A stretch of DNA of 64,000 nucleotides from Acidobacteriota bacterium (GTDB taxonomy: Bacteria > Acidobacteriota > UBA4820 > DSQY01): contig JAJYLT010000006.1 of the NCBI GenBank assembly GCA_021787565.1, positions 1 to 64,000 of the forward strand, written 5' to 3'. Position 1 is the stretch's first letter; each line of letters starts with the position of its first letter. The notes below the pieces were generated by a model, which was not told the DNA's origin, did no database searches, and worked only from the letters and a program-made list of their open reading frames with translations. Shown piece after piece: positions 41,030 through 57,133 of this stretch. A program made the position numbers and the translations under genes.

Positions 41030-42121
41030 GTGGAGGCGACCGTGGGCAGAAGGGCATACCTGATGGGGCAGAAGGCCGCCGGACGAAGCCTGGCCGCGGT
41101 GTGGCCGGCGCGCTACCCGGCGGAACTGCTCTGGGCCCACGGTATCTGCGCCGGCGAGGTGTGGGATCCGCCCGGGGATGCGGAGATGACCTTAGCCCAC
41201 CTCCAGAGTTTCGTCTGCCCCGTGGTCAGGAAGGGGTTGGGCCTCTATCTCTCCGGGACCCTCGCCCCCGTGGACCTCTTGGTATTTCCCCACACCTGCG
41301 ACAGCCTCCAGAACCTCTCCTCGCTCGTGAAGGACCTGCTCCACGAGGAAAAGCCCTGCCTCGCCTGGTATCCGCCACGGGCCTCGGGCCCGCAGGCTTT
41401 GGCGTACGCCGAGAGCCAGGTGCGGAGCCTCTCCCAGGCGCTCGACCGAGTGGTGGGGCCCATGCCGGATGGGGCGCTGGAGGAGGCCGTGGCGTGGGGG
41501 GAGCGCCGTGACGGCCTTTTGCGGGACCTTTACCGCTTGCGAGCGGAGGGCAAGCTTCGCGCGACCGCGACCGAGTTCTATGAGGCGGTCCGCTCCTGCG
41601 AGTATCTCTGGCCGGAGGAGGCGCTGGCCCGGCTGGAGGTCTTTCTGCGCGGGCGCCGCGCCGAGAAGCCCCTGTTGGAGGGGGTGCCCATCCTCCTCTC
41701 CGGGGTGCTGCCCGCCCCGGTTTCGCTTCTTCAGTGGCTGGACGGGGAAGGGATACGGATCGCCGAGGACGACCTGATCGCGTGCGGGCGCAGGGTCCTT
41801 CGCGAGCCCTTGGAGTCTCCAGCCGATCCGTGGGCGGCCCTGGCCCGGCGCCAGCTCGCCTGGCCCCCCTGCTCCACCGCCGGCTCGCCCCTCCGGGAGC
41901 GCATCGCCTTTCTGCTCCGCCTCGTGGAGCGCTCGGGCGCCCGGGGCGTTATCTTTCTGGCCATGAAGTTCTGCGAGCCCGAGGGCTTCGAGCGGCCGGC
42001 CCTCGTCGAAGCCTTGCGCGCGGAGGGGGTGCCCCTCCTCCAGGCCGAGAGCGAGCTGGAGCCTGAACCGCCCGCCTCGCTCGTGACGCGGATCCAGGCC
42101 TTCATGGAGTCGATTCCATGA
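41030..42121 (+). CDS. 2-hydroxyacyl-CoA dehydratase-family subunit (HgdB/BcrC-like, small)
   Basis: 363 residues. The N-terminal half has YPAELLWAHGICAGEVWDPP, QSFVCPVVRKGLGLYLSG and LLVFPHTCDSLQNLSSL, which match the cluster-binding cysteines of D-component subunits of the 2-hydroxyglutaryl-CoA dehydratase/benzoyl-CoA reductase superfamily. The second half holds ILLSGVLPAPVSLLQWLDG and GVIFLAMKFCEPEGFERPAL. Start is GTG at 41030 with GGGGAGG 6 bases upstream; a TATACT hexamer at 40984 may be the -10 box. Overlaps the next gene by 4 bases. Exact substrate cannot be told from sequence. Confidence 0.85.
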   Translation: MEATVGRRAYLMGQKAAGRSLAAVWPARYPAELLWAHGICAGEVWDPPGDAEMTLAHLQSFVCPVVRKGLGLYLSGTLAPVDLLVFPHTCDSLQNLSSLVKDLLHEEKPCLAWYPPRASGPQALAYAESQVRSLSQALDRVVGPMPDGALEEAVAWGERRDGLLRDLYRLRAEGKLRATATEFYEAVRSCEYLWPEEALARLEVFLRGRRAEKPLLEGVPILLSGVLPAPVSLLQWLDGEGIRIAEDDLIACGRRVLREPLESPADPWAALARRQLAWPPCSTAGSPLRERIAFLLRLVERSGARGVIFLAMKFCEPEGFERPALVEALRAEGVPLLQAESELEPEPPASLVTRIQAFMESIP

Positions 42122-43431
42122 AACCCTGGTCGGATCTGCGCTTCGCCTTCATGAGAGGGGCCGGGCTGGACTGGGTGACGCGGCTCTCATCGGGGCCCCG
42201 CCGTCCGCGGACGCCCCGGGAGCCCTTCTTCGGGCCGCCGCTTCAGAGCCGGCACGAGCTGCGCCGGATCATGACCCGGCACTACGGCCTGGCCCGGTAC
42301 GTCAAGGGGGTGCGGCCCGTGGCGTGGGTCACGAGCGGGGCGCCGGTGGAGCTGCTCAGGGCCTTCGGCTGCTACACCCTGTATCCGGAGAACCACTCGG
42401 CCCTCTGCGGCGCGCGCCGCATGGGCCCCGAGCTCTGCGAGGTGGCCGAGGAGGCCGGATATTCCCTGGACCTCTGCTCCTACGCCAAGGTGGACCTCGG
42501 CCACGCCCTCTCGGGCAGAACCCCGGTGGGGAAGCTGCCGGCGCCCGACCTTCTCTTCTGCACCAACAACATCTGCCAGACCGTCCTCTACTGGTTCAAG
42601 ACCCTGGCCCACCGCTACCGCATCCCGCTTCTCCTCGTGGACACGCCCTACGTCCACGGCGAGCCGGACGAGGCCGCCCTGCGGTACGTGGGCGACCAGC
42701 TCCAGGCCCTGGTGCCCGAGCTGGAGCGCATCACCGGCGGCGATTTCAAAGAGGAGCGCTTCCGGGAGGTCCTCCTCTCCTCCCGCAGGAGCGCCGCGCT
42801 GTGGGGTGAGGTGCTTTCCACGCTCCAGGCGAGGCCAACCCCCATGACCCTCTTCGACGCCTTCGTCCACCTCGCGCCGGTGGTGGCTCTGCGCGGCCTC
42901 CCCGTCTGCGAGCGCTACTACGAGGGGCTCCTCAAGGAGCTGAAGGAGCGGGTGGAGAGGGGGGTGGCGGCGGTGCCGGGAGAGCGCCACCGGCTCCTGT
43001 GGGACAACATCGCCGTGTGGTTCGCTCTCCAGCCGCTCTCCCGCCTCTTCGCCGAAAACGGCTGCGCCCTGGTGGCGGGCACCTACACCCACTCCTGGGC
43101 CGAGCCCGCCGTGCGCATCGACGAGAAGGATCCATGGGGCTCGCTGGCCCGGGCTTACGGCCTCATCTTTCTCAACCGGGACCTGGAGAGCAGGCTGACT
43201 CTCATGGAGCAGATCGCGAAGGATTTCTCCGTGGACGGGCTCGTGCTCCACTCGGCCCGTTCGTGCAAACCGTACTCTCTCGGGCAATACGGCATTCAGC
43301 GCGCCCTGGAGGAGCGGCTGGGCATCAGGAGCGTGGTGCTGGAGGCGGACATGACGGACTTCAGGAGCTGGGCCGAGGCGGCGACGCGCACCCGGCTGAT
43401 GGCCTTTATCGAGTCCCTGGAGGTGGCGTGA
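42118..43431 (+). CDS. 2-hydroxyacyl-CoA dehydratase-family subunit (HgdA/BcrB-like, large)
   Basis: 437 residues. Family landmarks: VAWVTSGAPVELLRAFGCYTLYPENHSALCGARRM, quoted in part as SGAPVELLRAFG and YPENHSALCGA (first cluster Cys), then LDLCSYAKVDLGHAL, LLFCTNNICQTVLYWFKTLA, and near the end LVLHSARSCKPYSLGQYGIQ. These Cys positions ligate the [4Fe-4S] clusters of the dehydratase. Forms a heterodimer with the upstream product; radical dehydration or ring reduction follows electron transfer from the activase. The stop overlaps the activase start by one base (TGATG). Confidence 0.88.
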   Translation: MKPWSDLRFAFMRGAGLDWVTRLSSGPRRPRTPREPFFGPPLQSRHELRRIMTRHYGLARYVKGVRPVAWVTSGAPVELLRAFGCYTLYPENHSALCGARRMGPELCEVAEEAGYSLDLCSYAKVDLGHALSGRTPVGKLPAPDLLFCTNNICQTVLYWFKTLAHRYRIPLLLVDTPYVHGEPDEAALRYVGDQLQALVPELERITGGDFKEERFREVLLSSRRSAALWGEVLSTLQARPTPMTLFDAFVHLAPVVALRGLPVCERYYEGLLKELKERVERGVAAVPGERHRLLWDNIAVWFALQPLSRLFAENGCALVAGTYTHSWAEPAVRIDEKDPWGSLARAYGLIFLNRDLESRLTLMEQIAKDFSVDGLVLHSARSCKPYSLGQYGIQRALEERLGIRSVVLEADMTDFRSWAEAATRTRLMAFIESLEVA

Positions 43432-44216
43432 TGGCCTCCCTCTACGGCGGGCTGGACGTGGGATCCATGACGGCCAAGGCGGTTGTGCTTGACGCGGAGG
43501 GCCGGCTGCTGGGCTGGGGCATGGCCGACACCACCCCCCAGCTCGCCGTCTGCGGGCGCGAGGCGCTGGATGGGGCCGTCTCCGCGGCGGGGGCACGGAG
43601 AGAAGAGCTGGCGTTCGTGGTGGGCACGGGCTACGGACGCGAGGCCCTTCCCTTCGTCCAGAAGCGGGTGACGGAGATCACCTGCCACGCCCGGGGGGCC
43701 TGCGCCCTCTTCCCGGGCGCCGCCCTCGTGGTGGACGTGGGGGGACAGGACAGCAAGGCCATCAGGCTGGACGCCTCGGGCCGGGTGCTCGCCTTCGCCA
43801 TGAACGACAAGTGCGCCGCGGGCACGGGCCGGTTCCTCAACGCCATGGCCGCAACGCTCCGTACGGGCATCGAAGGGCTCGGCCCGGCGGGCAGCAACAG
43901 CACGCGCGAGCTGGCCATGTCCTCCACCTGCACCGTCTTCGCCGAGAGCGAGGTCATCTCGCTCATTGCCCGGGGCGAGGCGGTGCCCGACATCGCCCAC
44001 GCCGTGCACCGCGCCATGGCCAAGCGGCTCTCGGGGCTGGTCCGCCAGGCGGGCGTGGGGGAACCGGCCGTCTTCACGGGAGGAGGGGCACTCAACGTGG
44101 ATCTGGTCCGGTGCCTGGAGGAGTGCCTCGGCGTCTCCTTCCGGATCCCCGAACGCCCCCAGCTCACGGGTGCTCTCGGGGCGGCCCACCTGGCCCGGGA
44201 GGCTGCGGGAAAGTAA
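43431..44216 (+). CDS. Activase of the dehydratase (BadF/BadG/BcrA/HgdC ATPase)
   Basis: 261 residues, ASKHA-fold ATPase. GGLDVGSMTAKAVVL is the phosphate-1 loop, VDVGGQDSKAIRL phosphate-2, FTGGGALNVDLVRCL the adenosine motif. The two cysteines that bridge the [4Fe-4S] cluster across the homodimer are at C128 (NDKCAAGTGRF) and C167 (SSTCTVFAESEVISL), as in HgdC. It injects one electron per ATP-driven step into the dehydratase. The cluster in this family is oxygen-sensitive, pointing to anaerobic growth. Confidence 0.95.
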   Translation: MASLYGGLDVGSMTAKAVVLDAEGRLLGWGMADTTPQLAVCGREALDGAVSAAGARREELAFVVGTGYGREALPFVQKRVTEITCHARGACALFPGAALVVDVGGQDSKAIRLDASGRVLAFAMNDKCAAGTGRFLNAMAATLRTGIEGLGPAGSNSTRELAMSSTCTVFAESEVISLIARGEAVPDIAHAVHRAMAKRLSGLVRQAGVGEPAVFTGGGALNVDLVRCLEECLGVSFRIPERPQLTGALGAAHLAREAAGK

Positions 44217-47221: not shown

Positions 47222-47662
47222 ATGAGCCGAGGTTCGACGACGTTCCCCGCCCTGATCTGGCTGCTGGTCCTGCTGGCGGTGGTGCTGTGCCTGCCGCTGC
47301 TCTTCCTGGGGGCGATCTTCGTCCTCTCGGCCTTCCACCCCGACGCGGTGGCGCAGGGCAAGAGCCTTCCCAGGGCGGCGATCGGCGGGATCCTCCTGCT
47401 GGGAGGCTTGCTGCTGGCGGCCCTGGCCGTGGTCCTCGCCCGCAACGCCACGCGGGGCGCCGGCCGGCCGGGGGATCTCTCGGGGGGCGTGGCCTCGGGT
47501 CAGGAGCCGCCGGGAGAGATCAATCTCAAGGCGCTCAACTGCCCTCATTGCGGAGGCCAGGTGGATGCCTCTACGGCGCGCCTGAATCCCGAGGGGACGC
47601 TCACCCTCACCTGTCCCTACTGCAAAGGCTCCTTCCTGATCCAGGAGGAGCCAAAGTGGTGA
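47222..47662 (+). CDS. Small membrane protein with C-terminal zinc ribbon
   Basis: 146 residues. Two membrane helices (about 10-36 and 52-72) are followed by a Gly-rich linker and a zinc ribbon, CPHCGGQVDAS...CPYCKGSFLIQEE. Function unknown; the same ribbon type occurs in two other proteins of this neighbourhood (48098-53643). TATAAT at 47209-47214 ends 7 bases before the ATG and no ribosome site is present, so the mRNA may be leaderless. It stands upstream of the Cys-tail/radical-SAM pair, separated by a tandem repeat. Confidence 0.65.
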   Translation: MSRGSTTFPALIWLLVLLAVVLCLPLLFLGAIFVLSAFHPDAVAQGKSLPRAAIGGILLLGGLLLAALAVVLARNATRGAGRPGDLSGGVASGQEPPGEINLKALNCPHCGGQVDASTARLNPEGTLTLTCPYCKGSFLIQEEPKW

Positions 47663-47670
47663 TCGCGGCG

Positions 47671-47977
47671 AAGCCGCGATCACCATCCTGAGGGCTTCTT
47701 CGAAGGCAGTCCCCGGAAGGATCGGGTGGTTCCGGGTGAAGAGGGTGGGCGACGACGCGGAGTAGATCGAAGCCGCGATCACCATCCTGAGGGCTTCTTC
47801 GAAGGCAGCCCCCGGAGGGATCGGGTGGTTCCGGGTGAAGAGGGTGGGTGACGACGCGGAGTAGATCGAAGCCGCGATCACCATCCTGAGGGCTTCTTCG
47901 AAGGCAGCCCCCGGAGGGATCGGGTGGTTCCGGGTGAAGAGGGTGGGCGACGACGCGGAGTAGATCGAAGCCGCTGC
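47671..47977. repeat. 99-bp tandem repeat, three units plus a partial fourth
   Basis: AAGCCGCGATC begins units at 47671, 47770 and 47869, and AAGCCGCTGCC starts a broken fourth at 47968. Units differ by one to three bases. 99 is a multiple of three, and both strands stay open through part or all of it: plus strand gives 32-codon frames each closed by TAG, minus strand reads straight through as a 33-residue repeat. No other function visible. Confidence 0.95.
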
Positions 47978-48097
47978 CCGTAGAAGGGCTTCCGTTGGAG
48001 GGAGAGCGATGGGGATGAATCGGCGGAGCGGCGCCCCGCCGCTGAGGGTACCGGGAAGGTGCGGCGAAGGCCGCCCGCTTCGGAGGGAAAAAAGATC

Positions 48098-49636
48098 ATG
48101 AAGAGACTGTTCGTGGTCCTGGTGGCCGTGGCGGTGGGCCTCGCTGTCCTGGCCGATTACCGGTTCGAGGTACCGCAGAACCGCAGCGTCGTCGAGGTGA
48201 ACCGCGACGCATCGATCACCATTCGGTACGCCATCACCTTCCGGAACCAGGGGCAGCCCATCGACGTCATCGACGTGGGCCTGCCCAACGGCCAGTACGA
48301 TCTGAAGGGGGTGACGGCGGACCTGGACGGGGCGACCCTGACGGATATCCGGCCATCCACCTACCTCCAGTACGGGGTAGAGGTCCATCTGGGCGACAAG
48401 GCCATTCCCGCAGGCTCCGAGGGAACGCTGCACCTCTCGGCCGTGGCCAGGGACAGGGTGTTCCCCGACAGCAAGGATTCCTCCTACGCCAGCCTGGAAT
48501 TCAGTCCCACCTGGTACGGCTCCCAGTACACCTCGGGGACCACTCTCCTGGCGTGCAGCTTCGTTTTCCCCGAAGGCGTGGGGCCCGACGACCCTCGTTA
48601 CCACGGTACGCCTTTCACTTCGGCCCGGGTAGAGCAAGGCCGGGTCATCTATACGTGGGACCTGCCGAACGCCTCGCCCTCCCGCCAGTACACCTTCGGG
48701 GCATCGTTTCCGGCCAAGGTCATGGAGCGGGTGGCCGCCATTCCGAGGGGGCCGGGGCCGACCGCCAGGATGGCGGCCGCGCTGGGGCAGCTCATCGTCG
48801 GCGCCATGCCCTGCTTCTGCATCGGGGGCTTCTTCGGCCTGTTCGTCCTGGTGATCGTCCGGTCGCGGCGCAGGCGGCTCCAATACCTGCCTCCCTCCAT
48901 CGGAATGGAGGGGGTCGAAGTGAGGAGGGGGCTCACGGTCCCCGAGGTAGCCGTCCTCATGGAGGAGCCGGTGGACCGGGTCATGGCCCTCCTGCTGTTC
49001 GGCATGATCCGCAAGAACCTCGTGAAGGTCGTGGGACGAGCGCCGCTGAAGCTGGAGCTGATACCCGGGGAGTCCCCGGCCGCGGACTACGAGCAGGCCT
49101 TCGCCAAGGCCATTCAGGACGACGGCCGGATCAGCGAGAAGGAGGCCACGGCCGTCCTCACGGACCTCATCAAGCGCGTCCAGGACAAGATGAAGGGTTT
49201 TAGCCGGAAGAAGAGCGTCCTCTACTACCAAGAGATCATGCGGAAGGCGTGGGAGCAGGTAGGGAGCCAGGACTACGCCCAGGCCTTCGAGTGGATGTTG
49301 CTGGACCGTGAGTTCGGCCAGCGGGCCGCACAGCGTTTCGGGAGCAACCCCATGCCGCTCCCCGTCTGGTGGGTGCCCATGTACACCGGCCATACGGCCG
49401 GTACCGCGGGGGGAGGGGTGCCCGCTCCGAGCCCCGTGGCGGCGGCCAACACCGTCGTGACGGGGCTGGAGGGGTTCGCCCACGACCTAGTGAACAGCGT
49501 CCCCGGCCTCGCCACCAAGGTCACCCAGCAGACGAATCCCGTGCCGCAGCCTTCGGGCCACACTTCGGGAGGAGGCTGTGCCTGTGCATGCGCTTGCGCC
49601 GGCTGCGCCTGCGCCTGCGCGGGAGGCGGAAGATGA
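48098..49636 (+). CDS. DUF2207-like membrane protein with a Cys-Ala repeat tail (proposed substrate of the radical SAM enzyme)
   Basis: 512 residues. Signal/anchor helix (about 3-20); an extracytoplasmic beta-rich domain (RFEVPQNRSVVEVNRDASIT onward, to about 225) of the DUF2207 kind; a membrane helix (about 232-262, CFCIGGFFGLFVLVIV); then a cytoplasmic part with a winged-helix-like segment (LTVPEVAVLMEEPVDRVMAL) and a helical domain. The last 22 residues are GGG-CACACACAGCACACAGGGR, with Cys at 494, 496, 498, 500, 503, 505 and 507. Codons for the Cys-Ala units vary (TGT/TGC; GCC/GCA/GCT/GCG), so the repeat is kept at protein level. The radical SAM gene follows by 61 bases. GGAGGG lies upstream of the ATG. 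Confidence 0.8.
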   Translation: MKRLFVVLVAVAVGLAVLADYRFEVPQNRSVVEVNRDASITIRYAITFRNQGQPIDVIDVGLPNGQYDLKGVTADLDGATLTDIRPSTYLQYGVEVHLGDKAIPAGSEGTLHLSAVARDRVFPDSKDSSYASLEFSPTWYGSQYTSGTTLLACSFVFPEGVGPDDPRYHGTPFTSARVEQGRVIYTWDLPNASPSRQYTFGASFPAKVMERVAAIPRGPGPTARMAAALGQLIVGAMPCFCIGGFFGLFVLVIVRSRRRRLQYLPPSIGMEGVEVRRGLTVPEVAVLMEEPVDRVMALLLFGMIRKNLVKVVGRAPLKLELIPGESPAADYEQAFAKAIQDDGRISEKEATAVLTDLIKRVQDKMKGFSRKKSVLYYQEIMRKAWEQVGSQDYAQAFEWMLLDREFGQRAAQRFGSNPMPLPVWWVPMYTGHTAGTAGGGVPAPSPVAAANTVVTGLEGFAHDLVNSVPGLATKVTQQTNPVPQPSGHTSGGGCACACACAGCACACAGGGR

Positions 49637-49697
49637 ACGGCCCGAAGGGAAGCAGGCCCGACGCGGTGCGCAGCAGCGAGGCCGAAGGGAGGATGCC

Positions 49698-51044
49698 ATG
49701 GGGCTGAGAGACCTCTTCAGGAGAACCGAGCGGGTGAAGGCGGGACTCTACCCGGGGACCCTCGTCGTGGAGGGGACCACCCACCGGATTCACCTCCGGG
49801 TCGAGCCCTCGGGAGCCGGAATCCTCACCCTCGACGCCAGCCGGATCCTCCACCTGAACCCCACCGCGGCGGAGATGGTGAAGCACCTGGTGGACGGGTT
49901 GAGCGAAGCCGAGACGGTGGATCTCATGGCCCGGCGCTATCGCGTGAAGCGCGCGGTGCTGGAATCGGACATCTCGCGAATCCTCCAGGCGGTGCGTACG
50001 CTCTCCGCCACCGACCAGGTCTGCCCCCTGTCGGACCTGGGAATCGAGCTCATCGAGCCCTTCTCCACCGCCATGAGCGCCCCGCTGCGCATGGACCTGG
50101 CCCTCACCTACCGCTGCCAGAACCGGTGCAGCCACTGCTATAACCAGGAAACCAGGCAGGTTTCCGAGCTGGACACGGCAGGTTGGAGGCGGGTGCTGGA
50201 CGCCTGCGAGTCGGCGGGCATACCGCACGTGGTCTTCACGGGAGGCGAGCCCACGCTCCGGGACGACCTGCCCGCGCTGGTGGCTTACGCCGGAGAGCTG
50301 GGGCTGGTCACGGGCCTCAACACCAACGGGCGGCGCCTGCGGCACGCCGCCTACACGGGGGCGCTCCGGGAGGCCGGCCTGGATCACGTCCAGATCACGC
50401 TGGAGTCGGCCGATCCTAGCCTCCACAACGCCCTGACCCGATCCGACTCCTTCGAAGAGACCCTGGCCGGACTCCGCGAGTCCAAGGCTTCGGGCCTCTT
50501 CACCCTGACCAACACCACGCTCACGCGGGTCAACCTGCCCGGCATCGAGAATCTCGTGGACCTGGTGGCCGCCGAAGGTCTCGGCACCTTCGCCGTCAAC
50601 GGGATGATCTACTCGGGCAAGGGCAAGAGCTCGGGCATCGACCTCACCTCGCAGGAGGTCGCCCCCGTTCTGGAAACGCTGGCACGGAGGGCCCGCGAAA
50701 AGGGGCTCCGCTTCGTCTGGTACACCCCGACGCGGTACTGCGAGCTGAACCCCGTGGAGATGGCGCTCGGCGTCAAGCAGTGCACGGCGGCACGGCTGAG
50801 CATGGCGGTGGAGCCGGACGGAACGGTCATCCCCTGCCAATCCTATTACGAAGGCGTAGGCAACCTTCTGACCGATTCCTGGGAGTCCGTCTGGAACCAC
50901 CCCCTCTGCCTCAAGCTCCGCCAGCCCCAGAAGCCCCTGCCCGAGTGCGAGGCCTGTGAGCACCTCAGCCTCTGCGGCGGCGGGTGTCCGCTGGAGGCTG
51001 AGCACCAGAAGCTGGTCTGCCGGGAGGTGGCCAGCGGGGGGTGA
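49698..51044 (+). CDS. Radical SAM/SPASM peptide-modifying enzyme with PqqD-like N-terminal domain
   Basis: 448 residues. Residues about 15-105 look like a PqqD/RRE fold (ILTLDASRILHLNPTAAEMVKHL), the leader-binding domain of RiPP enzymes. The radical SAM cluster is C140-x3-C144-x2-C147 (CQNRCSHCYN), with VVFTGGEPTLRDDL and GLNTNGRR downstream. A SPASM domain starts at C362 (CTAARLSMAVEPDGTVIPC) and ends CEACEHLSLCGGGCPLEAEHQ, providing auxiliary [4Fe-4S] ligands. GGGAGG precedes the ATG. Family members make thioether or C-C bonds, epimers or decarboxylate hemes. Next to a Cys-rich tail protein, thioether or related tail modification is the simplest guess. Confidence 0.88.
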   Translation: MGLRDLFRRTERVKAGLYPGTLVVEGTTHRIHLRVEPSGAGILTLDASRILHLNPTAAEMVKHLVDGLSEAETVDLMARRYRVKRAVLESDISRILQAVRTLSATDQVCPLSDLGIELIEPFSTAMSAPLRMDLALTYRCQNRCSHCYNQETRQVSELDTAGWRRVLDACESAGIPHVVFTGGEPTLRDDLPALVAYAGELGLVTGLNTNGRRLRHAAYTGALREAGLDHVQITLESADPSLHNALTRSDSFEETLAGLRESKASGLFTLTNTTLTRVNLPGIENLVDLVAAEGLGTFAVNGMIYSGKGKSSGIDLTSQEVAPVLETLARRAREKGLRFVWYTPTRYCELNPVEMALGVKQCTAARLSMAVEPDGTVIPCQSYYEGVGNLLTDSWESVWNHPLCLKLRQPQKPLPECEACEHLSLCGGGCPLEAEHQKLVCREVASGG

Positions 51045-51396
51045 CGGAGAGAGCGGAGCCGCCGCAGGGCGAGGGGGAGCGGGGGAACGGGGAGGTTCCC
51101 CCGCGCAGGGGGCATCCCGCGCGAGAGCAGGGAGGAGCAGCGAGCCCGGCGAAGGCCGGGGGAGCGCGGAGGAGGGCCGGCCGAGGCCCTCCTCGGGGAG
51201 CGCATGCGCGACGCGGCGGCGGGTGTCCGCTGGAGGCTGAGCACCAGAAGCTGGTCTGCCGGGAGGTGGCCAGCGGGGGGTGACGGAGAGAGCGGAGCCG
51301 CCGCAGGTCGAGGGGGAGCGGGGGAACGGGGAGGTTCCCCCGCGCGGAGGGCAGCCCGCGCAAGAGCAGGGACGAGCAGCGAGCGCGGGAAAAGAA
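50976..51396 (+). repeat. Tandem duplication of the radical SAM gene 3' end, period 239 bp
   Basis: About 182 bases from CGGCGGCGGGTGTCCGC recur at 50976 and 51215. Each copy holds the last 24 codons of the radical SAM gene with its stop and about 110 bases of 3' flank, including a GGGGGAAC...GTTCCCCC hairpin. The second copy is an orphan tail without a gene. The first 93 bases or so are identical; the flank has a few changes. Confidence 0.93.
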
Positions 51397-51954
51397 CCGC
51401 TCTCTGGTCAGGCCACCTACAACGGTGGGCCGCTGGTTGTAAGAGCGCTCTCCAGAGCACGACCCTCCGCAGGCTCGTCCTCCCCGCGAGGTTTCCCATC
51501 CCTCATCCATCATCTATCATCCATCATCCCCAAATGGGGCGGCCCGCCCTTGCGGGCGGGCCAGTGGAAGGGGAGGGAGGGATTGGGTTCGGAGGGGCCG
51601 AACCTCTCGGCACCGAGGAGCAAGTCCGGGGCACCGAAGGTTTTCCAATATGCATCCCGCATGCCAGTTCCTCCAGGAAGGCTAACCACCGTAATGTCAG
51701 CATCTAGATAGGACCCCGGGGGCGGACCCTGCCAAAGCGGCCGAGGCGTTCAGCCGCAGTCGTGCCGAAGTGACGCACGCGCCTTTGAGTCGCCGGAAGG
51801 TGGGAAGGTTGAACGCGGAGGGTGGAGGGTAGAGAGTGTGCGGAAGGAAGCCCAAACGCGTCCGCCAGTTGTCAGGTACGTGGCGCGAGAGGGGGCGGGG
51901 CGAGCTTGTGATACCCTCAGGGCATGAAGCCTGGTTGGGTCCAACGGAGGGACT
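51397..51954. other. Long intergenic region with a GC hairpin
   Basis: No credible gene. Perfect hairpin GGCCCGCCC-TTGC-GGGCGGGCC at 51541-51562, without a T run. Simple CATCCATCATC repeats at about 51488-51530 resemble those at 29035-29055. TACCCT at 51911 may be a -10 box for the next gene. Confidence 0.6.
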
Positions 51955-53643
51955 ATGGCGCAGGAGAAGGGACGAGGCGAGCAGGCGGGGGCGTTGGACC
52001 ACGAGGTGTGGGCCCCCTGTCCCAACTGCGGCGGCCAGAACCGCTGGGGACTCCTCCAGCGGCTCAACGTATGCACTTATTGCGACTCGCGCCTCCTGTG
52101 GCCCGAACCGGAGGGGGAGCGGCGCTTCCTTCTGGCCGAGGACGGCATTCGCTCCAAGGACGATCTGCTCGACGTGCTCCAGACATACGACGCCGTCCGG
52201 GAGCAGGCGCGCCTGGCGGGCATCGCCCAGCAGGCGCGGCGCGACGACAGGCCCCTGCTCCCCATGGACACGCAGGATGTCAACCTTCCGGCCCTGGCCG
52301 AGATCAAGGCCAAGCGCCGGAGCCTGTTTGCCCTCCAGGGCTACACGAGGCTGTACGCGCCCTACCTGATGGTCTCGGTGACCCTGGGGTTTCACGCCCT
52401 GGGACGCATTCCTCCGGCGGATCGAAAGGTCTTCCGCACCCTCTTTTTCGTCGCGGACGACCTGCTGCCAGCCTACGGAAGTGGATGGAACTTCAGGGAC
52501 GCGGGGCTGTGGGTCTCCCACCTCCGCTTCCGTCCCCTCTCCGGAGACGACCTCGCCAAGCACCGCTTCATGCGCCCCGAGGCGGCCAACGCCGATCCCG
52601 CCGGTGTCGCGAAGCGCTGGCTGAGGCAGGGAAGGCTTCTCGAACCCGACATGGCCCCCATCTTTTTCGATTCGGAGGTCTTCGCCTCCCATGCCTGGTG
52701 GGTCTACCGTCCCTACTACTACGTTCAGGCGACGACGCCGGAGGGATTGGGGTGGTTTCTGCTGGACGGCCAGTTTCGAACGCTGGCCGGCTATCCGGCC
52801 GCCGAGGAGGTGGAAAGGGCCACCCGCCACGACTGGCCTGTCATGGGACCGGACGACGTCCGGCCGCCCAATATCCACGTCGTGCCCTTCCGGTGTCCCG
52901 AGTGCGGATGGGACGTGAGCCCGGAGGGAGGCACGGAACACCAACTCTGCCGGAACTGCGGCCGGATGCTGCGGGCGGCGCCCGAAGGGCTCCAGGTGGT
53001 TCCCTACCGTATCATCGGTCAGGGCTGGTTCGGCGGGGCGCACGGTCAGGAGGGCTGGGCCTGGCTTCCCTTTTGGCGGATCGGGGGTAGCTTCACGCTG
53101 GAGGGGAAGAGCTACTCCTCACTCTCGGAGCTTCTCGATGCGGTGCTCGGAGCCGGGGTGGCCCCGGCCGGCCTCACCGAAGCCCTTTGCGCGCCCGCCT
53201 TTGACGTCTTGGCCTACCAGCAATTCGGGAGTTGGTCCCTCGCCGCGGCGTCTGGGTTGGCCGGCCCGGCGGTGCAGGCTGAGGAGGCTCTTCTCACCCA
53301 GGAGGTTGCCCTCGGCGAAAAGGACCGCCTCCTTCCGCCCTCCCTGGCGCCGGCCGATTGGGCCCCCCTTGCACCGAAGCTGCTGGCCGAGCTCTTGCCA
53401 GAACAGGCCCAGGTGCGGTTCAATCCGATGATCCTGCGGCGGCTGATGGCCGCCCAGTTCACCACGGGGTCGGCCGATCTGATCTATGCTCCCTTCCCGC
53501 TGGGCGAGGCGGGAGGGCCGGTGGTGGTGGGCCCCGGAGGCGCGGTGGGATCGCCGCCGCTCTTCAGCGGGACCTTCCCTCCGGGCCTCTATCGCTCGGT
53601 GAAGCGATGGATGGCCAAGGCGCCGGCGGCTGATAATAGATGA
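51955..53643 (+). CDS. Hypothetical protein with two zinc ribbons
   Basis: 562 residues, soluble. An N-terminal zinc ribbon (CPNCGGQNRWGLLQRLNVCTYC, cited as CPNCG and CTYC) and a second near residue 315 (CPECGWDVSPEGG...CRNCG). Between and after them lie aromatic-rich domains (HAWWVYRPYYYVQATTPEG, GWAWLPFWRIGGSF) that look like repeated transporter-independent beta domains; I do not recognise a family. GGAGGGACT precedes the ATG. It follows the radical SAM unit after the duplicated tail and may belong to the same system, but that is only neighbourhood. Confidence 0.6.
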   Translation: MAQEKGRGEQAGALDHEVWAPCPNCGGQNRWGLLQRLNVCTYCDSRLLWPEPEGERRFLLAEDGIRSKDDLLDVLQTYDAVREQARLAGIAQQARRDDRPLLPMDTQDVNLPALAEIKAKRRSLFALQGYTRLYAPYLMVSVTLGFHALGRIPPADRKVFRTLFFVADDLLPAYGSGWNFRDAGLWVSHLRFRPLSGDDLAKHRFMRPEAANADPAGVAKRWLRQGRLLEPDMAPIFFDSEVFASHAWWVYRPYYYVQATTPEGLGWFLLDGQFRTLAGYPAAEEVERATRHDWPVMGPDDVRPPNIHVVPFRCPECGWDVSPEGGTEHQLCRNCGRMLRAAPEGLQVVPYRIIGQGWFGGAHGQEGWAWLPFWRIGGSFTLEGKSYSSLSELLDAVLGAGVAPAGLTEALCAPAFDVLAYQQFGSWSLAAASGLAGPAVQAEEALLTQEVALGEKDRLLPPSLAPADWAPLAPKLLAELLPEQAQVRFNPMILRRLMAAQFTTGSADLIYAPFPLGEAGGPVVVGPGGAVGSPPLFSGTFPPGLYRSVKRWMAKAPAADNR

Positions 53644-53724
53644 AGGATTAGGGATGAAGGATGAGGTGAGGGATAAGGCGGGGCTTGGCGCTTGTTCAAT
53701 CCGAGCATGGCTGGGTAGAGTAAC

Positions 53725-53751
53725 CATGGCCGTCCAAGACAATGTCAGTTC
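53725..53751. repeat. Short copy of the border of the 29-kb structured element
   Basis: 21 of 27 bases match 29057-29083, beginning CATGGC and including GTCCAA and TCAG. The rest of the element is absent here. Confidence 0.4.
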
Positions 53752-53799
53752 GCATTTTTGTGGTCTATTTTCCAGAGCGAAGCGGAGGGAGAGGATCCT

Positions 53800-54597
53800 A
53801 TGAACCCGTATCTCGTCGCGGTCATCCAGGGCATCGTGGAGGGGCTCACCGAATTCATCCCCGTCTCCTCCACGGGCCACCTCATCCTCACAGGGAACCT
53901 CATCGGCTTTACGGGAGAGGCCTCGAAGGATTTCGAGATCATCATCCAGCTCGGCGCCATCCTGGCGGTGGCGTGGCTCTACCGGAAACACCTCTGGCAG
54001 ATCCTTTGGCGCTGGCACTTCACGAGGGACCAGGGCGGCCTCAACGTCTGGCACATGGCCCTCGGCATGATCCCCGCTTCGGTGGTGGGGCTGCTCAGCT
54101 TTCACGCCATCAAGACCTACCTCTTTTCGCCGGCGACCGTCCTCATCGGCCTGGTCGGCGGCGGCATCTGGATGATCCTCGTGGAGCGCTTTCCGCGCTC
54201 CGTGACCGCTCCCACCGCCGATTCCGTGACCTACCTCCAGGCGCTCGGCATCGGCTGCTTCCAGTGCCTCGCCCTCTGGCCGGGCTTCTCGCGTTCGGGT
54301 GCCACCATCGCGGGGGCGCTCCTTCTGGGTCTCGGGCTACGGGCCGCGGCCGACTTTTCCTTCATGCTCGCCGTGCCCGTCATGGTGGCCGCCACGGGTC
54401 TCGACCTCGTCAAGAGCGCCTCGCACCTGCCCGCCTCGGACGTGGGGATGTTCGCGGTGGGCTTTGTCGTCTCCTTCGTCGTGGGGTGGCTGGCCGTGGT
54501 CGGGTTCCTGCGCCTCCTGGCGCGGGTGAAGCTCACCCCCTTCGCCTACTACCGCTTCGCCGTGGCCGCCGCCTTCGGACTCTACTTCTTCCGATAG
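53800..54597 (+). CDS. uppP: Undecaprenyl-diphosphate phosphatase
   Basis: 265 residues, about eight helices. UppP (BacA) dephosphorylates undecaprenyl pyrophosphate so that the lipid carrier can be reused in peptidoglycan synthesis. Active-site regions: VIQGIVEGLTEFIPVSSTGHLIL near the N-terminus and FQCLALWPGFSRSGATIAGALLLGL in the second half. GGAGGGAGAGG is placed well before ATG 53800; the longer upstream reading lacks one. Completes the cell-wall genes in the window but stands alone. Confidence 0.96.
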   Translation: MNPYLVAVIQGIVEGLTEFIPVSSTGHLILTGNLIGFTGEASKDFEIIIQLGAILAVAWLYRKHLWQILWRWHFTRDQGGLNVWHMALGMIPASVVGLLSFHAIKTYLFSPATVLIGLVGGGIWMILVERFPRSVTAPTADSVTYLQALGIGCFQCLALWPGFSRSGATIAGALLLGLGLRAAADFSFMLAVPVMVAATGLDLVKSASHLPASDVGMFAVGFVVSFVVGWLAVVGFLRLLARVKLTPFAYYRFAVAAAFGLYFFR

Positions 54598-54630
54598 ACG
54601 CCGAGCCAGGCAACGGCCCGGGGAGGGAAG

Positions 54631-55332
54631 TTGAATACGCTCAGGCCGTCGCCGTATCAGCTCGCTCGGACCCGCCCCATTCGGCTGGCCGTGTACCGGA
54701 AGGCCCGTCTCTCCTTGCGGCGCCGAGTCCTCGATGTGGGAGCCGGCGGCGGAGAGGTCGCGGCGGAGATGGCCTCCCGCACGGGCCGGAAGGTATGGGC
54801 GCTGGACCTGGAACCAGCCGTTCACGAGGCGGCCGGAATCATCCCGGTCGCGGGCACGGCGGCGGCCCTGCCCTTCGCCGACGGTTCCTTCGACGCCGTG
54901 GCCTTCCACTTCGTCCTCCTCTGGTTGAATGATCCAGTCGCCTGTCTTGAGGAGGTTCACCGAGTGCTCGTGCCGGGCGGCGTGGCGATGGCCCTGTCCG
55001 AGCCTGATCTCACGCGCCGGGAGGATGCACCGGACACGGGCCTGGGGGCGGCGCTGCGGGCCGCCGTCCGGAACGCAGGGGGGCATCCCGACGCCGGAAC
55101 CCGGCTGGCCGGATGGCTCAGAAATTCCGGATTCAGGAGCGATGTGAAGGAAACCCCGCCCGAGTGGGTGTGCCTCGAAGATCCGAGAGAGGCCCAATGG
55201 GAAATCGATTATCTCGTCTCCACGGGAACGCTCGCGGGGGCGGACGCGGCTAGTCTTCGGAAGGCCATCGATGCATGTTGGCCTCCACGCGTCAGACTCC
55301 CCGTCGCCTTCGGCTGCGGTTGGCGGCTCTAG
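54631..55332 (+). CDS. Class I SAM-dependent methyltransferase
   Basis: 233 residues. RRVLDVGAGGGEVAAEMA is the SAM-binding motif I, WALDLEPA motif II, ALPFADGSFDAVAFHFVLLWL motif IV region and EVHRVLVPGGVAMALSEPD motif V/VI. The family (UbiE/methyltransferase 11) covers many substrates, so none can be assigned. Start TTG with GGGGAGGG at good distance. It lies 33 bases after uppP on the same strand and is probably co-transcribed. Confidence 0.88.
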   Translation: MNTLRPSPYQLARTRPIRLAVYRKARLSLRRRVLDVGAGGGEVAAEMASRTGRKVWALDLEPAVHEAAGIIPVAGTAAALPFADGSFDAVAFHFVLLWLNDPVACLEEVHRVLVPGGVAMALSEPDLTRREDAPDTGLGAALRAAVRNAGGHPDAGTRLAGWLRNSGFRSDVKETPPEWVCLEDPREAQWEIDYLVSTGTLAGADAASLRKAIDACWPPRVRLPVAFGCGWRL

Positions 55333-55667: not shown

Positions 55668-56078
55668 ATGTACAGGGAGTTGGAAACCATCCTGAAGGCG
55701 GCGGGGGACCGGAACAGGCTTCGGATCCTGCACATGCTGGCCGATGGCCCGCTCTGCGTCTGCCAGATCGTGGCGGTCCTGGACCTGGCCCAGCCCACTA
55801 TCAGCAAGCACCTGGCGGTACTGAAGACCGCCGGCCTCATCGAAGACGAGAAGAGGGGCAAGTGGGTCTTCTACGACCTCGCTGGGAGGATCAAGAAGAA
55901 TTCCGCGCGAAGGCGCCTGCTCAGGCTCGTCGAGAAGGCCCTGGCCGGGGATTCCGAGGCCGGAAAGGACCTCAAGCAGGCCGGGCGGGAGAAGGCGAGG
56001 GCTCTGGCGGCAGGATGCTCCGATGAATCCAGTCCACGTAGCAAGGTGGGCGTCGTCTCGGCTGGAGGCCGGCCATGA
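55668..56078 (+). CDS. arsR: ArsR-family arsenite-responsive repressor (first)
   Basis: 136 residues. Winged [54 protein letters not shown]. The metal site at the start of helix alpha-3 is C30-Val-C32 (LCVCQIV), the ELCVC type that binds As(III)/Sb(III). The C-terminal 40 residues are Lys/Arg-rich with one further Cys. ATG after GAGGAAT. Overlaps acr3 by 4 bases, so regulator and exporter are coupled. Confidence 0.92.
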
Positions 56079-57133
56079 AAGAGCGCGTTTCCCAGCGGCT
56101 CTCCTTCCTGGACCGCTATCTGACGCTGTGGATCTTCGCGGCGATGGGTGCGGGAGTCGCCGCGGGATACCTCGTACCCGGCGTGGAGGAGTTCATCGAT
56201 CGGTTCCAAGTGGGCGCGACCAGTCTTCCCATCGCCATCGGCCTGATTCTGATGATGTATCCGCCCCTCGCCAAGGTGAGGTACGAGGAGTTGGGGGACG
56301 TGTTTCGGAACTCGAAGGTGCTGGCGCTCTCGCTGGTGCAGAACTGGGTGGTGGGACCAATGCTGATGTTTGCCCTGGCCGTCGTATTCCTGCGCGGCTA
56401 TCCGGAGTACATGGTGGGGCTCATCATGATCGGCCTGGCGCGCTGCATCGCCATGGTCATCGTGTGGAACGAGTTGGCCCAGGGCGACACGGAGTACTGC
56501 GCGGGGCTCGTGGCCTTCAACAGCGTCTTCCAGGTCCTGTTCTATAGCCTGTATGCGTGGATCTTCATCACGGTCCTCCCGCCGCTGGTGGGCCTCAAGG
56601 GTCTGGCCGTGCACGTGAGCATGGGGCAGATCGCCGAGAGCGTCTTCGTCTACCTCGGCATTCCCTTCCTGGCGGGGATGATCACCCGTTTCGTCCTCGT
56701 GAAGGCCAAGGGCAAGACCTGGTACCACGAGCGTTTCATTCCGAAGATCAGCCCCATCACGCTCGTGGCGCTTCTCTTCACGATCGTCGTGATGTTCAGC
56801 CTCAAGGGCAAGCTGATCGTGCAGATTCCATTGGACGTGGTACGCATCGCCATCCCGCTCCTGATCTATTTCGTGGTCATGTTCCTCGTGAGCTTCTGGA
56901 TGGGCAGGAAGGCCGGAGCGACCTATTCGCAGACGGCGACCCTTTCGTTTACGGCCGCGAGCAACAACTTCGAGCTGGCCATCGCCGTGGCCGTCGCGGT
57001 CTTCGGCATCAATTCCGGCGAGGCCTTCGCCGCCGTCATCGGGCCGCTGGTCGAGGTGCCCGTGCTGATCGGCTTGGTCAACGTATCGCTCGCACTGAGG
57101 CGGCGCTGGTTTCCTTTCGAGGCCACTGCCTGA
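56075..57133 (+). CDS. acr3: Acr3-type arsenite efflux permease
   Basis: 352 residues, ten helices. Acr3 exports As(OH)3 across the inner membrane by proton antiport. Signatures: [25 protein letters not shown] (in part), [18 protein letters not shown] with the conserved Cys of helix 4, FLAGMITRF, and [21 protein letters not shown]. The usual family length is about 350. Translationally coupled to arsR. Confidence 0.96.

Follow-up and report, generated by a model that had tools for sequence, protein, structure and literature searches.

A conserved Cys-Ala tail on a membrane protein as the probable substrate of an adjacent radical SAM/SPASM enzyme in bacteria and Asgard archaea

Introduction

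Membrane proteins of the TIGR04222 family end in low-complexity, Cys-rich C-terminal tails and their genes adjoin those of MNIO (DUF692) enzymes; they have been proposed to be modified proteins and not released peptides (PMC12452194). Here we describe a locus of a similar kind in a stretch of 64,000 nt from an Acidobacteriota bacterium (assembly GCA_021787565.1, contig JAJYLT010000006.1; the whole stretch is called the window), in which the gene of a membrane protein ending in a row of Cys-Ala units (P0001, the carrier) is followed by that of a radical SAM (rSAM)/SPASM enzyme (P0002). We consider it probable that the adjacent enzyme is dedicated to the post-translational maturation of the membrane-tethered carrier tail, in a way resembling that of ribosomally synthesized and post-translationally modified peptides (RiPPs).

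Other systems share parts of this arrangement. The ACGX system (TIGR04340) presumably pairs an rSAM/SPASM enzyme with a product containing many repeats of Ala-Cys, as its family name suggests. A precedent is provided by QhpD, the maturase of quinohemoprotein amine dehydrogenase, an rSAM/SPASM enzyme crosslinking Cys within a lasting protein. Systems combining an rSAM with a RiPP recognition element (RRE) have been studied mostly as makers of small secreted peptides, while the comparable machinery considered here goes with a large protein anchored in the membrane. A search of the open literature, with subscription papers outside its scope, returned no description of the tail or of its pairing with the enzyme.

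The Cys-Ala tail and its distribution

The C-terminus of P0001 reads ...GGGCACACACAGCACACAGGGR, with Cys residues at positions 494, 496, 498, 500, 503, 505 and 507. The first-pass annotation had described a seven-cysteine tail on this 512-residue membrane protein, in strict alternation with Ala; the tail is confirmed, with a single break in the alternation at Gly502. Its further claim, that the tail does not derive from DNA slippage, is borne out by 91 distinct nucleotide sequences encoding exactly CACACACAGCACACAGGGR, which differ on average by 11.2 of 57 nt in pairwise comparison and leave the amino acids unchanged. The composition does resemble a simple repeat, but an artefact of slippage or low complexity, with the rSAM gene an unrelated neighbour, has a negligible probability in view of these 91 synonymous versions, of the occurrence of the tail in more than 100 genomes and two domains of life, and of its co-occurrence with the enzyme (18/18 versus 0/129 genomes, see below); slippage and chance were accordingly rejected on the basis of synonymous variation and distribution.

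Among 100 genomes drawn around the genome of the window, 17 besides the window's own encode a full P0001 homologue, and the 19-residue tail is identical in 16 of them, although the identity of the protein body falls to 38%; the 17th (genome G036) carries the rearranged tail CACACAGCACACACAGGGR. In an alignment of 42 carriers with a mean column identity of 30%, residues C496-A499 and C503-R512 are invariant.

A DNA pattern for CACAGGGR-stop, applied to one genome per species, matched at least 118 stretches, and 107 of the 118 matches listed are real tails, to which the counts given below refer. These tails, of the general form (CA)n[G](CA)mGGGR, are the C-termini of a single family of membrane proteins, spread over about 17 named phyla that include Asgard archaea. 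Chloroflexota account for 63 of the 107; the Asgard sources are Heimdall-, Hod-, Sigyn-, Hermod- and Promethearchaeota, and the others comprise Thermoplasmatota, Fermentibacterota, Armatimonadota, Planctomycetota, Coatesbacteria, Edwardsbacteria, Myxococcota, Zixibacteria, Acidobacteriota/Aminicenantes, Actinomycetota and Hydrogenedentota. The tails vary almost solely in the number of repeats: (CA)4G(CA)3 is found in 48, (CA)3G(CA)3 in 14, (CA)5G(CA)3 in 13, (CA)3G(CA)4 in 11, a Gly-less (CA)6, always archaeal, in 10, and (CA)2G(CA)4 in 7, with a few other forms. That the tail is kept to the letter in both bacteria and archaea suggests a housekeeping function and not one in warfare. As a separate observation, a contig of the viral collection IMG/VR (L144) encodes a CACACAGGGR tail, with no enzyme in its 15-kb record; it may represent host DNA.

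Extreme conservation, the extreme C-terminal position, a preceding Gly/Ser linker and a fixed terminal Arg are features also expected of a sorting or processing signal, cut off after recognition like the C-terminal sorting tags. We regard this explanation as very unlikely, because the tail occurs on one protein family, the motif is found at one place only in the window's own genome, with no second tail-bearing protein there, neighbour clustering revealed no protease in the recurrent cassette, and the tail is predicted to lie on the cytoplasmic side. A sorting tag spread over many proteins was rejected on the first two of these grounds.

Linkage between tail and enzyme

An active rSAM, that is one with the CxxxCxxC motif intact or cut only by the end of the locus, is encoded directly downstream of the tail and on the same strand in 76 of the 107 loci, upstream in 4 and elsewhere in the locus in 3; when counted by distance instead, an rSAM is present at 80 of 108 listed tail loci. 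At 24 listed loci no active enzyme is visible; a search of the corresponding genomes or records found an enzyme match elsewhere in 20 of 23 genomes (E<1e-117), 19 of the 20 being full length (E<1e-154). The rest of the 23 yielded an enzyme fragment (G121), a degenerate copy only (G119) and distant rSAMs only (G115).

The same linkage is seen when whole genomes are compared. In 150 Chloroflexota genomes of one class (that of G105), the enzyme exceeds 500 bits in 21 and the tail is present in 18, all of them within the 21, so that none of the 129 genomes without the enzyme has a tail. In the phylum of the window, all 17 carrier genomes match the enzyme profile (the gene is cut at a contig end in G007 and the match covers over two thirds in G040), and none of 26 non-carrier genomes reaches 400 bits. 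Genome G001, from the same genus and with a completeness of 97%, has neither the carrier tail nor the enzyme; a match there to the tail pattern with one mismatch was rejected as a chance frame of 10 residues. Lastly, 26 of 119 Asgard genomes have an enzyme above 500 bits, with the tail directly upstream in 18 and elsewhere in 3 more. The enzyme had been suggested to be dedicated to the tail protein, and these surveys agree: a tail protein without it is uncommon, and the full-score enzyme is not found with unrelated partners.

The radical SAM/SPASM enzyme

The domains assigned to P0002 by the first-pass annotation, with C140/C144/C147 and a RiPP-recognition-like (PqqD) N-terminus, hold when compared with Pfam, all the scores being above the cut-offs: 87.1 bits for Radical_SAM (PF04055, E=1.9e-24; cut-off 29.5), 36.1 for SPASM (PF13186; cut-off 21.5) and 32.2 for PqqD (PF05402; cut-off 23.4). 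The seven-Cys pattern of the SPASM domain is present (C362, C380, C417-x2-C420-x5-C426-x3-C430, C441), with C362, C380, C417, C420 and C426 invariant in the alignment A1 and C430 nearly so. The AlphaFold2 (AF2) model (pLDDT 85, pTM 0.85) consists of an RRE, a TIM-like core and the SPASM domain, and its closest folds are the peptide maturases SkfB, SuiB, CteB and PqqE, in agreement with a sequence profile search. P0002 does not reach any curated family model, those of the sactipeptide/ranthipeptide maturases included, scoring 71.4 against 625 bits for StsB (NF045574) and 66.4 against 300 for SkfB (TIGR04403).

Fold and topology of the carrier

P0001 matches no Pfam or NCBIfam family. Its earlier description as DUF2207-like stands only as a remote relation, in that a carrier of the sister system described below (L213) matches PF09972 (DUF2207) with 25.3 bits against a cut-off of 24.4. 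The P0001-family profile reaches the sister carriers with E down to 3.8e-26, and one of 42 carriers matches DUF2207_C (E=0.001). In the AF2 model, besides the confident beta domain (for which a fold search returned only loose similarity to ribophorin and M1-peptidase beta domains), a long helix (residues 221-261) crosses the membrane and leads to a cytoplasmic domain of mixed structure, while the end of the chain, residues 485-512, is disordered (pLDDT <50).

The tail is probably cytoplasmic, as the first-pass annotation had assumed, since in 73 of 94 carriers the part beyond the last transmembrane (TM) segment has more Lys and Arg than the part ahead of the first; the single predicted TM segment of P0001 fits this topology. 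By a crude hydropathy count, 41 of the 94 have more than one internal TM segment.

A sister system with (ACHS)n tails

A second tier of enzymes, at about 300-378 bits, led to carriers of the same type whose Cys tail is also fixed and of another kind, (ACHS)n; they were found in Chloroflexota, Acidobacteriota and Asgard archaea (loci L179-L182, L212-L223, L020-L022 and L252-L258), and in Acidobacteriota the tail ends ...ACVSGGAH. The Cys residues of the ACHS tail are spaced by 2, 4 and 5. Among 12 Chloroflexota carriers of this type, retrieved by a search with the body of the protein, the rSAM is adjacent in 11, and in the 12th (L223, genome G146) a separate contig (L178) carries it. A phylogeny of 65 rSAMs divides the (ACHS) from the (CA) enzymes in two groups (support 100), and Chloroflexota, Acidobacteriota and Asgard members occur in both; the tree requires one change of tail type versus five changes of phylum, therefore the enzyme clade follows the type of tail. 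Because the two groups meet on long branches, the root is not defined. One ACHS cassette locus (L180) includes a Gly-tailed DUF2207-like protein without a Cys tail.

Proposed maturation of the tail and alternative explanations

Taken as the substrate, the tail gives the most economical reading of these data, given its fixed sequence, the nearly exclusive association with the enzyme, the recognition domain of the latter and the existence of a second type of tail with its own enzyme clade. In the maturation that we propose, the carrier would be exported through its signal peptide and anchored by one TM helix (several in the carriers of class II), keeping the C-terminal linker and the Cys-Ala tail in the cytoplasm. 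There the PqqD-type domain of the enzyme would bind the carrier, perhaps at its cytoplasmic domain or at a recurrent TNPxP/Gly-Ser linker, and the rSAM/SPASM core would modify the row of Cys-Ala units, assisted or followed in tailoring by the methyltransferase and, in many genomes, by a dead rSAM paralogue, both presented in the next section. The mature tail would stay attached as a membrane-tethered functional group, without release of a peptide. Its most likely chemistry is the formation of intramolecular thioethers (C-S bonds) between Cys and neighbouring carbons, which would yield a compact, crosslinked domain, possibly metal- or redox-active. Thioethers are preferred since both types of tail present Cys next to Ala and since the nearest folds include SkfB and CteB; C-C coupling, epimerisation or another oxidation of Cys would be less favoured possibilities. 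The role may be that of a metal or redox site at the membrane, which the analogy with Cys-rich proteins modified by MNIO enzymes makes plausible.

Some points weigh against this proposal. Homology does not decide the type of bond, because the nearest solved relatives form both thioethers (SkfB, CteB) and C-C bonds (SuiB, PqqE), and a specificity of the enzyme for the tail over other parts of the carrier is suggested by conservation. Moreover, eight genomes with an enzyme above 500 bits have no tail detectable with one mismatch allowed (G127, G128 and G239 in Chloroflexota, and five Asgard genomes). All eight assemblies are drafts, and of the three enzyme genes in Chloroflexota two are located at the end of a contig or on one of 3.5 kb; variant tails or gaps in the drafts are the probable cause. 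A further point is a pyridoxal phosphate (PLP) enzyme with Ala_racemase_N and D-ser_dehydrat domains, encoded beside the ACHS rSAM in Asgard archaea (L253, 1243-2499, minus strand; the domain scan covered L253 only, and similar genes of 380-419 aa are present in L252, L254, L255 and L256). It could hint at D-amino acids, and hence at epimerisation, in the tail.

Radical SAM epimerases exist, and the two-residue alternation of the Cys-Ala tail, together with this PLP enzyme, would fit the epimerisation of alternate residues into an alternating D/L peptide, similar to a beta-helix and free of crosslinks. We hold this to be unlikely: the Cys spacings of 2, 4 and 5 mean that the two-residue parity is lost in the sister tail, the PLP enzyme was not seen in the Chloroflexota and Acidobacteriota loci examined, and the nearest solved structures are those of crosslinking maturases.

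Another explanation leaves the tail unmodified, as a metallothionein-like CxCxCxC strip for metals, Fe-S or Cu on the inner side of the membrane, with the rSAM acting elsewhere (e.g. on partner proteins) or helping the loading of the metal. CxC repeats are classic metal ligands, the cassette includes a zinc-ribbon membrane protein, and the analogous Cys-rich bufferins associated with MNIO enzymes chelate copper (PMC12452194). Nonetheless we judge it improbable, as Ala residues and GGGR ends fixed over such a distance are needless for metal binding alone, and a matching rSAM clade for each type of tail is needless as well. In addition, known metal-binding strips are far more variable in sequence.

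Returning to the enzymatic maturation of the tail, a bolder and doubtful extension of it would see an ancient protein-derived cofactor shared by bacteria and Asgard archaea, in which a dedicated rSAM/SPASM enzyme converts a membrane-tethered poly-Cys strip into a new repeating covalent structure, either through D/L alternation or through thioethers in series. Such a structure would hold metals or electrons on the inner side of the membrane and would exist in at least two chemotypes, (CA)n and (ACHS)n.

The cassette and its organization in the window

Clustering of the neighbouring genes gave four recurrent families, namely the carrier, the rSAM (148 genes in 104 loci), a zinc-ribbon membrane protein and a class I methyltransferase; the recurrent clusters contain these families and the minor ones were not scanned singly for MNIO (DUF692). 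In 47 of the 107 loci the tail gene is closely preceded by that of a homologue of the zinc-ribbon protein. A protein of this kind is retained in both the (CA)n and the (ACHS)n systems, and the ribbon Cys and the terminal Trp are conserved in 56 of 56 aligned sequences. The methyltransferase is present in 55 of the 107 and was not detected in the ACHS loci examined. In 40 listed loci the active enzyme is accompanied by a paralogous rSAM/SPASM protein that has lost CxxxCxxC and kept the PqqD-like region (e.g. L024, 4126-5313; L044, 3680-4981, minus strand), and this dead paralogue may be a binding partner. In class II, with (CA)3G(CA)4 tails, the enzymes are encoded upstream of the carrier.

In the window (Table 1) the cassette spans 47222-55332, more than the carrier and enzyme genes to which the first-pass annotation was confined. 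P0002 starts 61 nt past the stop codon of the tail, and two other genes separate it from the methyltransferase. These encode a 562-aa protein with possible zinc ribbons (51955-53643) and BacA/UppP (53758-54597); in a relative (L183), the methyltransferase frame immediately follows the rSAM. A direct duplication at the 3' end of the enzyme gene suggests a recent local rearrangement and is outside the proposed mechanism. A 99-nt direct tandem repeat in three copies (98%) lies between the zinc-ribbon and carrier genes (47669-47974). Farther away, an ArsR-type regulator followed by an SBF/ACR3-like transporter forms an arsenite-resistance-like pair (55668-57133), and a protein similar to the D-component of 2-hydroxyglutaryl-CoA dehydratase precedes a BadF/HgdC-type activator-like frame, the latter judged by eye (42118-44216).

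Table 1. Features of the cassette in the window (HMM, hidden Markov model).
Feature	Position	Strand	Basis
Tail carrier P0001, 512 aa: signal peptide, extracytoplasmic beta domain, one TM segment, cytoplasmic domain, Gly/Ser linker, Cys-Ala tail	48098-49636	+	AF2 mean pLDDT 84
P0001 extracytoplasmic beta-rich domain, residues 23-205	48164-48712	+	AF2 model, pLDDT mostly >94
P0001 TM segment, residues 236-254, then RSRRRR (cytoplasmic side)	48803-48859	+	Hydropathy and positive-inside count
19-residue Cys-Ala tail CACACACAGCACACAGGGR, residues 494-512, proposed modification substrate	49577-49633	+	Conservation; at least 107 loci in pattern scan; disordered in AF2
P0002 radical SAM/SPASM enzyme, 448 aa, N-terminal PqqD-type RiPP recognition domain	49698-51044	+	
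P0002 PqqD/RRE-like domain, residues 16-104, four strands and three helices	49743-50009	+	PF05402 E=1.4e-7; AF2
P0002 CxxxCxxC motif, C140/C144/C147	50115-50138	+	85/85 of aligned active family (set chosen by motif)
P0002 SPASM domain with auxiliary-cluster Cys C362, C380, C417, C420, C426, C430, C441	50781-51020	+	PF13186 E=8.3e-9
Zinc-ribbon membrane protein, 146 aa, C-terminal CPHCG...CPYCK ribbon, ends EEPKW	47222-47662	+	Cassette HMM 'zn' E=1.6e-30
Class I SAM-dependent methyltransferase, fourth cassette member	54631-55332	+	Methyltransf_11 E=5.4e-19; cassette HMM 'mt' E=2.9e-46
Direct duplication, 176 nt, 96%, 3' end of enzyme gene and following sequence	50974-51149 and 51213-51388	+	

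Comparison with known systems

These data suggest a mode of chemical modification of a protein tail at the inner face of the membrane that is widespread and, it appears, has not been described. The system offers a testable substrate of 19 residues, mostly with 6-8 Cys, together with a natural pair of tail and enzyme chemotypes, what may be a new metal or redox site derived from a protein, and a candidate function for a DUF2207-like group of membrane proteins. The latter resemble the carrier in having an extracytoplasmic beta domain, a TM segment, a cytoplasmic helical domain and a Gly-rich C-terminus, although P0001 itself has no match to DUF2207.

The enzyme has the same three-domain build as SkfB, CteB and SuiB, the RRE-fused SPASM maturases of sacti- and ranthipeptides and of C-C crosslinks, which are its best matches in sequence and fold; these act, however, on short leader-core peptides and share about 17-19% identity with P0002. 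QhpD, going by its description, differs in its substrate, in its links from Cys to Asp or Glu and in its periplasmic product.

The nearest systems in kind are the ACGX rSAM family and the TIGR04222 proteins linked to MNIO. With regard to the former, the 400-bit cut-off of TIGR04340 is not reached by P0002 (72.5 bits) or by an ACHS enzyme (94.9), and the substrate in the present case is a large membrane protein. With the latter, the common traits are a membrane protein, a Cys-rich C-terminal tail and an adjacent peptide-modifying enzyme. P0001 has no match to the TIGR04222 domain, and a sister ACHS carrier scores 34.1 bits, below the cut-off of 43. Furthermore, the enzyme is here a radical SAM/SPASM protein with a PqqD domain instead of an MNIO, the tail is a fixed (CA)n or (ACHS)n instead of a loose Ser/Gly/Cys sequence, its predicted location is cytoplasmic and not periplasmic, archaea are included, and the coupling of tail and enzyme is nearly complete, whereas a third of the genomes with TIGR04222 are without MNIO.

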